In this document: positions 47,437 through 55,108 of the stretch, piece by piece
How the letters are laid out: each line of letters opens with the position of its first letter
How positions within the stretch are numbered: the first letter of the stretch is position 1
Assembly: GCA_001464055.1 (NCBI GenBank)
Contig: LNET01000055.1
Span: 1 to 64,000, forward strand
Source: Burkholderiales bacterium Ga0077543
GTDB lineage: Bacteria > Pseudomonadota > Gammaproteobacteria > Burkholderiales > Burkholderiaceae_C
Direction: 5' to 3'
Length of the DNA stretch: 64,000 nucleotides
Position numbers and translations under genes: made by a program
The notes under the pieces: model-generated
Told to the model about the DNA's origin: nothing
Database searches by the model: none
The model's input: the letters and a program-made list of their open reading frames with translations, nothing else

Positions 47437-48342
47437 ATGGCGATTCCCATCAAAACCGCTGCCGACATCGACGGCATGCGCCTGGCCGGCCGACTGGCTT
47501 CCGAGGTCCTGGACATGTTGACCCCGTACGTGAGGGCCGGCGTCACCACCAAGGAAATCGACCGTCTGGCGCATGACTACATGGTCAATGTGCAGGGCGG
47601 CATCCCGGCCACGCTGGGCTATCAGCCGGCAGGCTATCCGGCCTACCCGGCTTCACTGTGCACCAGTCTGAACGACGTCGTCTGCCACGGCATTCCCGAC
47701 GACCGGCCCTTGAAGAACGGTGACGTCATCAACATCGACGTCACCGTCATCAAGAACGGTTGGCATGGTGACAACAGCCGCATGTTCGTCGTCGGCGAAG
47801 GCAGCATCGCCGCCCGCCGGCTGTGCAAGATCACCTTCGACGCGATGTGGAAAGGCATCGTCAAGGTTCGCCCTGGTGCGCGCCTGGGCGACATCGGTCA
47901 CGCCATCCAGACCTTTGCGGAAAACGAAGGCTTCTCCGTCGTGCGCGAATTCTGCGGCCACGGCGTGGGCGCGAAGTTCCACGAAGAACCGCAAGTGCTG
48001 CACTACGGCCGCCCGGGCACGCTGGAAACGCTGGAGCCCGGCATGATCTTCACGATCGAACCCATGATCAACGCCGGCAAGCGCGACATCAAGGAAGACC
48101 GCAAGGGTGCCCGCCCCTACGACGGCTGGACCATCGTCACGCGCGACCGCTCGCTGTCGGCGCAGTGGGAACACAGCGTGCTGGTCACCGAGACCGGCTA
48201 CGAGGTTCTCACGGTATCGGCCGGCAGCCCCGACGCGCCGGAGTTCGCCAGCGCCGGCTACGGCGGCAGTGTCGGCCGGCACCCGTCGGCCACGCTCCAG
48301 GCACCGGCGGACCGCGCCTCGGCGCTGGTCACGTCGCCCTGA
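47437..48342 (+). CDS. map: Methionine aminopeptidase type I
   Basis: A 301-residue pita-bread-fold metallopeptidase. The metal ligands D101 and D112 ([17 protein letters not shown]), H175 ([14 protein letters not shown]), E208 (FTIEPM) and E245 (WEHS) are all present. It has about 35 extra residues beyond the normal 264-residue length, forming a Ser/Ala/Pro-rich C-terminal tail (after VLTV). It removes initiator Met. The ATG at MAIPIKT lies right behind a GATAAT element. glnD begins 25 nt downstream. Confidence 0.94.
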
Positions 48343-48367: not shown

Positions 48368-51027
48368 ATGCCTCCTGCAACCCCGCCCGGCGGCACGGCA
48401 ACCGGGTCGGTGGCTGCGCTGCGCGCGCAGTTCCGAAGCGGCAAGGCGGAGTTGCTGGCCCAGTTCAACGCCAGCCGGCCGAGTTCAGCCGCCGTCACGC
48501 GCCTGTTGCGGGGCTTGATGCGCCACGTCGACGCCACTCTGGCAGAAGCCTGGGCCGATGCGATGATGCCGGCCGAGGCCACGCTGGTAGCCGCGGGCGG
48601 TTACGGCCGGGGCGAGCTCTTCCCGCATTCGGACATCGACGTGCTGGTGCTGCTGCCCAACGACGTCAAGCATGTGGCGCAACCACGCGGTGACCGCAGC
48701 GCCCCGGGCACGCCGGGCGAAGCCCTGCGCCTGGCGATCGAGCGCTTCGTCACTGCCTGCTGGGATATCGGGCTGGAGATCGGCTCCTCGGTGCGCAGCG
48801 TCGAAGAATGCCTGGAAGAAGCGCGCCGCGACGTCACCGTGCAGACGGCCTTGCTCGAGTCGCGGCGCGTGTGTGGCTCGCAACGGTTGTTCAAGCAGTT
48901 ACAGGACACCCAGGCCCAGGCCATGGACCCGCGCGCCTTCCTGCGCGCCAAGACCCTGGAGATGCAGCAGCGTCACACCAAGTACGAGGGCACGCCGTAC
49001 GCGCTGGAACCGAACTGCAAGGAAAGCCCTGGCGGGCTCCGTGACCTGCAGGTCGTGATCTGGGTCGCGCGCGCGGCCGGCCTCGGACGCACCTGGACAG
49101 AACTGGCTGCAAAAGGCCTGATCACGAAGTTCGAAGCCAGCCAGCTGAGCAAGCACGAGTGCACGCTCAAGCTCATCCGGGCCCGGCTGCATGCCGTGGC
49201 AGGCAGGCGCGAGGACCGCCTGGTCTTCGACCTGCAGACTGCCGTGGCCGAGAGCTTCGGCTACAAGGCCACGAAGGAACAGCGCAGCAGCGAAGTGCTG
49301 ATGCACCGCTACTACTGGGCGGCCAAGGCGGTGACGCAGCTCAACCAGATCCTGATGCTGAACATCGAGGAGCGCGTCACCGACAGCGAAACCCTGCCGA
49401 TGCGCCCGATCACCGCGCGCTTCCTGGACCGCGCGGGCATGCTCGAAGTGGTCAGCGACGACCTTTACCTGACGAACCCGCACGCCATCCTGGAAACCTT
49501 CCTGGTCTACCAGCAGACGCCAGGTCTGTCCGGACTGTCGGCGCGCACGCTGCGGGCGCTTTACAACGCGCGCAACGTGATGGGCGCCGACTTCCGCAAG
49601 GACCCCATCAACCGCGAACTGTTCCTGGACATCCTGCGCCAGAAGTCAGGCACCACGCACGTGATGCGGTTGATGAACCAGACCAGCGTTCTGGGCCGGT
49701 ACCTGTGGGTGTTCCGCCGCATCGTCGGGCGCATGCAGCACGACCTGTTCCACGTGTACACGGTCGACCAGCACATCCTGATGGTGGTGCGCAACATGCG
49801 CCGCTTCTTCATTCCGGAGCATGCGCACGAATACCCGTTCTGCAGCCAGCTCGCGGCGCAATGGGACGCGCCATGGTTGCTGTACGTGGCCGCCATCTTC
49901 CACGACGTCGCCAAGGGCCGCGGCGGCGACCATTCCGAGCTGGGGGCCGTGGACGCGCGGCGCTTCTGCCGCGACCACGGCCTGTCGCGCGAAGACACGG
50001 CGCTCATCGAATTCCTGGTGCTGCAGCACCTGACGATGAGCCGCATCGCGCAGAAGGAAGACCTGTCCGACCCGGAAGTCATCCAACGCTTTGCCGAACT
50101 GGTGGGCACGCCGCGCCGGCTGACCGCGCTGTACCTGCTGACGGTGGCCGACATCCGGCCTGGAAGGGCAAGCTGCTGGAAGACCTGTACCGCTACACCC
50201 TGCGCGCGCTGGGTGGCGCGCAGCCGAATCTGGACGCAGAGATCGAGGCGCGCAAGCAGGAAGCGCGGCAGAACCTGGCCCTGCATTCGGCGCTGCCCGG
50301 CACCGAAGAGCCGCTGTGGAAGACGCTGGAAGTCAGCTACTTCGCGCGCCACGACGCCGCCGAGATCGCCTGGCACGCCCGTTCGCTGTGGCGGCACGTG
50401 CAGGCCCAGGTGCCGATCGTGCGCGCCCGACCGTCGTCAGTGGGCGACGGGCTGCAGGTGCTGGTCTATGCGCCTGACCGACCCGACCTGTTCGCGCGCA
50501 TCTGCGGCTACTTCGACAATGCCGGTTTCAGCATCCAGGACGCCAAGATCCACACCACGCGCGCCGGTTACGCGCTGGACACCTTCCAGGTCGTGAGCCT
50601 GGTCGGCGGCGCCCTGGCCGATGCCGCGCACGAGCACGACGTGCCTTACCGCGACCTGATCTCGCTGGTCGAGACCCAGGCCACGCTGGCCCTGGCCAGC
50701 AGCGGCCCGCTGCCCGAACCGCAGCGTCGCCGTGTCTCGCGCCGCGTGAAGAGTTTCCCCGTGACCCCACGCGTGTCGCTCAGCCCCGACGAACGTGCCC
50801 AGCGCTGGCTGCTCACGGTGTCGGCCAGCGACCGGTCGGGCCTGCTTTACGACGTGGCGCGCGTGCTCGCCCGCTATCAGGTCAACCTGCAACTGGCCAA
50901 GGTCAGCACGCTGGGCGAACGGGTCGAAGACACTTTCCTGGTGGACGGCGCTGCCCTGCAGCAGAGCAAGGCGCAACTGCGCATCGAGAGCGAGCTGCTC
51001 GATGCCGTCGCTTCGCCTGCCAACTGA
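48368..51027 (+). pseudogene. glnD: [Protein-PII] uridylyltransferase GlnD, interrupted by a frameshifting deletion near 50157
   Basis: The two halves of GlnD lie in different frames. The first half reads MPPATPPGG..., nucleotidyltransferase [15 protein letters not shown] (D89/D91), the PII-UTase region, the HD phosphohydrolase [16 protein letters not shown] (about residue 510) and then YLLTVADIR. After ATCCG at 50153-50157 the frame changes, and [18 protein letters not shown] (from 50164) continues +1-like through two ACT domains to the stop at 51027. Family members have GTSPKVWNA between ADIR and WKGK; those codons plus one base (25 nt) are missing. In the first frame translation would end at 50596 after a non-homologous tail. 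Restoring 25 nt gives 894 residues, the normal length. Either a recent knockout or a sequence error; loss would disconnect nitrogen sensing. Confidence 0.85.
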
Positions 51028-53154: not shown

Positions 53155-53892
53155 TCAGCCCATGTGCATGCCGCCGTTGCAGCTGAAGTCGGCACCCGTC
53201 GAAAAGCCCGAGTCTTCGCTGGCCAGCCAAGCCACGATGGAGCCGATTTCCTCGGGCGTGCCCAAGCGCTTGACCGGGATGGTGGCAACGATCTTCTCCA
53301 GCACTTCAGGCTTGATCGCGCGCACCATGTCGGTGCCGATGTACCCCGGGCTGACGGTATTCACGGTGACACCCTTGCTGGCCACTTCCTGGGCCAGGGC
53401 CATCGTGAAACCGTGCATGCCGGCCTTGGCAGCCGAGTAGTTGGTCTGTCCGGCCTGACCCTTTTCACCGTTGACCGAACTGATCTGGATGATGCGGCCC
53501 CAGCCCTTTTCCACCATGCCCGGCACCACCTGCTTGGTGACGTTGAACATGCTGTTCAGGTTCGTGTCGATGACGGCTTTCCAGTCCTCGGGCGTCATCT
53601 TCAGGAACATGCGGTCCTTGGTGATGCCGGCGTTGTTCACCAGCACGTCGATCGCGCCATGTTCGGCATTGGCCTTGGTGAAGGCGTCGACCGTGCTCTG
53701 CCAGTCGGCGACATTGCCGACGCTGGCGTAGAAGGTGTAGCCCAGGGCTTTCTGCTCGTCGAGCCACTTGTTGAAGTCGCGGCTGGGGCCGCAGCCCGCA
53801 ATGACCTTGAAGCCTTCCTTGTGCAGGCGCTGGCAAATGGCGGTTCCGATGCCACCCATGCCGCCGGTGACGTATGCGACTTTCTGAGCCAT
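53155..53892 (-). CDS. phaB: Acetoacetyl-CoA reductase PhaB
   Basis: A 245-residue short-chain dehydrogenase: NADPH motif GGMGGIG (10-16), NNAG, catalytic Ser in QISSVNG and YxxxK in NYSAAKAG, and the PhaB-typical GQTNYSAAKAGMHGFTMALAQE and the C-terminal GADFSCNGGMHMG. It makes (R)-3-hydroxybutyryl-CoA for polyhydroxybutyrate. The chosen ATG has AAGGAG 8 nt upstream; an upstream in-frame start is weaker. It is the third gene of phaC-phaA-phaB; phaR does not follow. Confidence 0.96.
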   Translation of the reverse strand: MAQKVAYVTGGMGGIGTAICQRLHKEGFKVIAGCGPSRDFNKWLDEQKALGYTFYASVGNVADWQSTVDAFTKANAEHGAIDVLVNNAGITKDRMFLKMTPEDWKAVIDTNLNSMFNVTKQVVPGMVEKGWGRIIQISSVNGEKGQAGQTNYSAAKAGMHGFTMALAQEVASKGVTVNTVSPGYIGTDMVRAIKPEVLEKIVATIPVKRLGTPEEIGSIVAWLASEDSGFSTGADFSCNGGMHMG

Positions 53893-53926
53893 GTTCTTGA
53901 ACTCCTTGATGTTGGATTGGTGATTC

Positions 53927-55108
53927 TCAGCGTTCAACGGTCAGGGCGACACCCATGCCACCCCCTATGCAGAGACTGGCAATGCCCTTCTTCGCGTCAC
54001 GGCGCACCATCTCGTGCAGCAGCGTCACCAGGATGCGGCAGCCGCTGGCGCCAATCGGGTGGCCGATGGCAATGGCACCGCCGTTGACGTTGACCTTGCT
54101 CGTGTCCCAGCCCATTTCCTGATGCACGGCGCAGGCCTGGGCCGCGAAGGCTTCGTTGATTTCCAGCAGGTCCAAGTCCTGCGGCTTCCAGCCGGCGCGC
54201 TCCAGCGCGCGGCGCGCCGCCGGCACGGGGCCCATGCCCATGATCTTCGGGTCCAGGCCGGCGCTGGCATAGCTGGCAATGCGCGCCAGCGGTGTCAGGC
54301 CCAGGGCCTTCGCTTTGGCGGCCGACATCACCACCACGCCGGCCGCACCGTCGTTCAGGCCGCTGGCATTGCCCGCGGTCACGCTGCCGGTCTTGTCGAA
54401 GGCCGGGCGCAGGCCGGCCAGGGCCTCGGCGCTGGTCTTCTTGTTGATGTACTCGTCGGCCGCGAAGACGACCGGGTCGCCCTTCTTCTGCGGAATGCTG
54501 ACCGGCACGATCTCGTCCTTGAAGCGGCCGGCTTCCTGGGCGGCGGCGGCCTTCATCTGGCTGGCCAGGGCCAGGGTGTCCTGGGCCTCGCGGCTGATGC
54601 CGTACTGGCGCGCCACGTTTTCCGCCGTGGTGCCCATGTGGTACTGGTTGTAGACGTCCCACAGGCCGTCGGTGATCATGCTGTCGACCATCTTCCAGTC
54701 GCCCATGCGCTGGCCGTCACGCGAGTTCATCAGCACGTGGGGCGACAGGCTCATGCTCTCCTGCCCGCCAGCGATGACGATCTCGCTGTCGCCGTCGCGG
54801 ATGGCCTGCGCCGCCAGCATCACCGCCTTCAAGCCCGAGCCGCAGACCTTGTTGATGGTCATCGCCGGCACGGTGTCGGGAAAACCGGCCTTGATGACGG
54901 CCTGGCGCGCGGGGTTCTGGCCGACGCCGGCGGTCAGCACCTGGCCCAGGATGACCTCGCCGATCTGCCCGGCTTCGAGCCGGGCGCGTTCCAGCAGCGC
55001 CTTCAGCACGGTGGCTCCGAGTTCGGAAGCCGGCGTCTTGGCCAGGGTACCGCCGAACTTGCCCACCCCGGTGCGGGCAGCGGCGACGATGACGATTTCG
55101 GTGCTCAT
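53927..55108 (-). CDS. phaA: Acetyl-CoA C-acetyltransferase (beta-ketothiolase) PhaA
   Basis: A 393-residue thiolase with nucleophile C89 ([11 protein letters not shown]), H350 (GHPIGASG) and C380 (LCIGGGMG). It condenses two acetyl-CoA to acetoacetyl-CoA for PHB. It is preceded by CAGGAG and by a 98-nt phaC-phaA gap that contains a hairpin. It precedes phaB by 34 nt. Confidence 0.96.

Follow-up and report, generated by a model that had tools for sequence, protein, structure and literature searches.

A private 25-nucleotide gap breaks the reading frame of glnD between its HD and ACT regions in a Burkholderiales assembly

The glnD gene of Burkholderiales bacterium Ga0077543 has, in the available assembly, one private gap of 25 nt that breaks its reading frame between the HD domain and the two ACT domains. 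The gene lies in the window, by which we mean the whole 64,000-nucleotide stretch of DNA that was analysed. The lesion is of an ordinary type and does not define a new kind of system, and nothing in the data demonstrates that nitrogen sensing has changed in evolution. We lean slightly toward an assembly or consensus error as its cause, with an intact gene in the living organism. With an intact glnD in the cells, the enzyme would act like any proteobacterial GlnD: PII would be uridylylated at low glutamine, and the UMP group would be removed from PII at high glutamine, as sensed by the ACT domains.

All coordinates of the broken gene refer to the forward strand. Frames, Pfam and NCBIfam matches together assign the nucleotidyltransferase, UR_UTase and HD regions to the first part of glnD (48368-50157). 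The ATG at 48368 is our choice of start, the ORF being open further 5', to a GTG at 48107. Pfam matches in the first piece (48368-50155) are NTP_transf_2 (PF01909; residues 70-102, 48575-48673), GlnD_UR_UTase (PF08335; 48938-49354) and an HD domain (PF01966; residues 495-566, 49850-50065). Their scores of 27 bits against a cut-off of 21, 142.9 against 21 and 30.8 bits against 22, respectively, indicate that all three of these regions of GlnD are present. From ATG 48368 the first frame remains open past 50157 as far as a stop at 50594-50596, which adds an out-of-frame tail (50156-50596) of 146 codons, 32 of them for arginine, plus the stop. The second part (50158-51027) is in the -1 frame and carries the two ACT domains, closing with the gene's native stop. 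Pfam found ACT in two stretches of this piece (50158-51024), and the best match is the second ACT domain (PF01842; residues 219-275 of the second piece, 50812-50982). Both ACT domains are therefore present, but after 50157 they are in the -1 frame instead of the single frame expected of GlnD.

The domain order is the same as in GlnD (NF002837, PRK03059), and between them the two pieces cover nearly the whole of one model. The first piece covers positions 10-572 of the 857 positions of NCBIfam NF002837 and the second covers 582-856; because coverage jumps from 572 to 582, about nine model positions are missing. The difference between the window's gene and NF002837 is thus the 25-nt frame-breaking gap, about nine model positions in size and situated between HD and ACT. 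An earlier note on this DNA had proposed that the frames before and after about 50157 encode consecutive parts of glnD, and that a conserved segment is missing between HD and ACT; the frames, the Pfam domain positions and the NF002837 coverage agree with it on each of these points. Its calculation that restoring 25 nt would give 895 codons is also correct if the stop is included, since the gene, counted from ATG 48368 through the last base of its stop (51027), is 2660 nt long, to which 25 are added. No solved structure related in sequence to the first part was found at E ≤ 0.001. On one side glnD is flanked by what we take to be a map-like gene, and on the other by a gene that is presumably selU/mnmH-like.

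The gap was assessed against 109 loci, of which 29 are from same-genus genomes (seven of the 36 same-genus relatives yielded no locus at the glnD site) and 80 are the best of at least 592 confirmed others, many of them bearing the name Rubrivivax or that of another member of the Burkholderiales. Within three pairs of loci the cores are identical, so that 106 of the 109 are distinct. In alignment, the window is a net 25 nt shorter across the glnD site than every one of the 109 loci. The comparison with close relatives' glnD that the earlier note had proposed therefore upholds its claim of a 25-nt gap that breaks the frame. All but one of the loci, 108 in number (105 distinct), contain both glnD pieces, and in all 108 the pieces share one frame. 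The nearest relative (G017) is 89% identical to the window in DNA, and alignment to it places the break between 50157 and 50158. Identity to this relative is 93% over the first 596 residues and 96% over the next 289, and because both parts are so similar the glnD break is no chance pattern. A search of 399 family genomes for the junction at 50157-50158, which lacks the 25 nt that the compared relatives have, allowed up to two mismatches and matched only the window's own genome; the same genus accounts for six of the 399, with the genome of the window among them. A junction common to relatives was accordingly rejected. A DNA search of the window's own assembly did not find a second glnD copy.

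There is no indication that the ACT part has decayed. Compared with the nearest relative, its dN is 0.019 and its dS 0.448, and the resulting dN/dS of 0.042 can be set beside 0.094 for the first part of glnD and 0.081 and 0.176 for two neighbouring genes. When changes were assigned to branches with four outgroup loci, which leaves small counts, the ACT part had 0 replacement and 12 silent changes on the window's branch and 2 and 7 on the nearest relative's, with 8 and 54 unassignable. The corresponding counts for the first part were 4 replacement and 21 silent changes on the window's branch and 0 and 18 on the nearest relative's, with 30 and 101 unassignable. Against four more distant relatives, dN/dS was 0.21-0.26 in the ACT part and 0.28-0.31 in the first; dS is probably saturated at these distances, and we give the values no weight. 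The 289 codons of the ACT part contain no further stop codon. The relaxed selection or added lesions typical of a pseudogene were thus not found in the ACT part, although a very recent loss leaves no such trace. Because the ACT part is undecayed, the lesion is either very young or absent from the living genome.

An assembly or consensus error is supported by the absence of the gap from all 109 relative loci, by the occurrence of the junction in the window's own genome alone among 399, and by the undecayed ACT part with its 0 replacement against 12 silent changes. The alternative, to which we assign somewhat less than an even chance, is a real and very recent private deletion. The lack of relaxed selection and the absence of the gap from every compared relative weigh against it, the former with the reservation already made for very recent loss. 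In its favour are the single glnD copy in the assembly and the clean junction in a long contig: the contig is 165,650 bases long, and no N was found among the 163,600 bases that were read. Such a clean 25-nt gap inside a contig of this length also argues against error. Assemblers seldom produce a gap of this kind inside a long contig and one-base errors are commoner; the usual false pseudogene has a one-base error, smaller than the 25 nt seen here. The earlier note had judged a simple base-calling error unlikely, and the size is indeed unlike a simple slip, but an assembly or consensus error is still compatible with 25 nt.

The quality of the surrounding sequence also bears on the choice between error and deletion. 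A two-frame protein test was made against the nearest relative's contig, to which the window's contig aligns over 72,514 bases. It flagged 5 of the relative's 70 ORFs and 2 of the 61 in the window's contig; glnD alone combined two pieces of more than 85% identity (88% and 96%). The other six flagged ORFs each have at least one piece at or below about 69% identity; some are spurious, and the six are probably antisense ORFs or 5' overextension. A nucleotide-indel frame-walk, for which 13 further ORFs of low identity or coverage had been set aside, raised a flag in 13 of 48 conserved ORFs, one of them glnD. Overlong ORFs and the placement of gaps confound this walk; its count was not used, and the weight rests on the two-frame protein test. 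By that test the nearby frames are otherwise sound and no general frameshift problem is evident in the contig, which counts against an error and gives mild support to a real deletion. One of the six other ORFs flagged by that test belongs to a gene outside the window, at 66301-68565 of contig C55, with a 3' part (67064-68308) of 93% identity to the relative and an upstream part of 63% identity in another frame, a pattern that may be a frame change or a wrong start.

In the nearest relative, the stretch that the window lacks has a GC content of 76%, and 27% of the 25-mers sampled from the window are at least as GC-rich. A GC-rich, hard-to-sequence spot was rejected for this reason, and the ordinary GC is a further point against an error. 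No microhomology was found at the break when the nearest relative's letters were substituted for the ancestral ones, and a deletion between short repeats was rejected; the absence of microhomology speaks for an error and against a real deletion.

The window's genome, in 130 contigs with 94.49% completeness and 2.06% contamination, looks like a metagenome-assembled genome (MAG). Stops in the alignment were seen in six of the 108 two-piece loci, four of them at alignment ends and two internal. The internal stops belong to two Polaromonas MAGs whose glnD is conserved apart from a single such codon, which lies in the first part in L087 and in the ACT part in L098. Internal glnD stops were thus present in 2 of 54 MAG-titled loci (one of which, L061, is represented by its first part only) against 0 of the 26 others among the 80, counts that fit assembly error or mixed populations. 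They point toward error but are too small to be given weight. Cooley and Wright attribute many bacterial pseudogenes in public assemblies to assembly errors, and not specifically in MAGs (PMC11017572). The window's glnD resembles the false pseudogenes described there in being a conserved, otherwise undecayed gene that is broken in a single assembly.

Everything more exotic than an error or a recent private deletion is, taken jointly, improbable. The TGA that closes the tail shares bases with a GTG of the ACT frame, forming GTGA (50593-50596), and this GTG could allow re-initiation. A tolerated or adaptive GlnD without ACT, possibly accompanied by a separate ACT2 fragment made in this way, is nevertheless very unlikely. 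The overlap can be due to chance, there being 14 GTG codons in the ACT frame after the junction; no ribosome-binding site was seen by eye; most of ACT1 would be missing; and the arrangement is found in no compared relative. We consider it just as doubtful that this is a genuine natural allele that uncouples the PII-modifying enzyme from glutamine sensing, ACT2 being made as a small protein of its own through GTGA re-initiation. A nearly full-length protein would result from programmed -1 ribosomal frameshifting close to the junction, and both the -1 frame of the second part and the openness of the two frames over the junction are in keeping with such frameshifting. However, the gap takes out conserved residues and is in no compared relative, and no slippery heptamer of the form X XXY YYZ was found in any frame of the + strand from 50100 to 50596. 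Programmed frameshifting was rejected on account of the missing heptamer and is barely credible.

If the deletion is real, GlnD would have no ACT domains; its transferase and HD parts would run into a foreign tail of 146 residues. The truncation proposed in the earlier note thus stands insofar as the ACT domains are lost from the frame, but with 146 out-of-frame residues added it is no simple cut. Work by Zhang et al. (2010, J Bacteriol) reportedly showed that in ACT-deleted GlnD the removal activity remains but is blind to glutamine, and that transfer is strongly lowered. PII would therefore be expected to tend toward the unmodified state, and the constitutive PII modification that the note had suggested is not what such work points to. 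By analogy, if the protein is stable, uridylylation would be weak and deuridylylation would no longer be tuned by glutamine; PII would then tend to remain unmodified and the cell would probably behave as nitrogen-rich. If the protein is unstable, the cell would be a glnD null. The predicted product would be like the engineered ACT-less GlnD in lacking both ACT domains and unlike it in having a foreign tail and in being known here from sequence alone.

Reviews place uridylylation in the N-terminal domain of GlnD and removal in the HD domain, with high glutamine favouring removal (PMC4285133, PMC6490700). A Sinorhizobium meliloti mutant whose GlnD lacks the N-terminal domain is viable but impaired, and its PII is unmodified under nitrogen limitation; the authors' reading is that the cells are locked in a high-nitrogen state (PMC3596328). 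That truncation is unlike the window's, but it illustrates that glnD lesions are survivable, which favours a real deletion. In a living population such a deletion would be a natural test of ACT-less GlnD outside the laboratory. The case serves mainly as a caution, since a break in a master regulator in a single draft genome is to be taken as altered nitrogen physiology only where sequencing reads bear it out. No natural glnD lesion like this one was found among the literature matches listed, in a search that covered the smaller part of the GlnD literature; the glnD variation in BCG is a synonymous base change (PMC7437937).

The genome encodes the partners found with GlnD systems. There are two PII proteins with Tyr51, plus a third, weaker PII match, and a second PF08335 protein is encoded on contig C73. 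The C73 protein has two PF08335 matches and looks like GlnE, and it was rejected as a second glnD. Because PII proteins and a GlnE-like protein were found, the usual PII cascade appears to be present, which is another point for an intact glnD in the organism and an error in the assembly. The weaker PII match (L121, G000:C43; PF00543, 53.6 bits) adjoins an ORF that we take to be a bicarbonate transporter of the SbtA type, an arrangement like that of SbtA-SbtB pairs. Six PF00142 matches, four of them over the cut-off, include no clear nitrogenase reductase, but the assembly is incomplete and the organism may still have nif. The two strong PF00142 (NifH-family) proteins, L132 (G000:C126) and L133 (G000:C26), are cut by contig ends; they are presumably BchL and BchX, and their neighbours are presumably bacteriochlorophyll-type genes. 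The organism looks like a phototrophic betaproteobacterium. Within the window, two ORFs that lie next to each other on the - strand (53155-55108), with 260 and 393 residues and 95% and 97% identity to the relative, look like a phaB-phaA pair.
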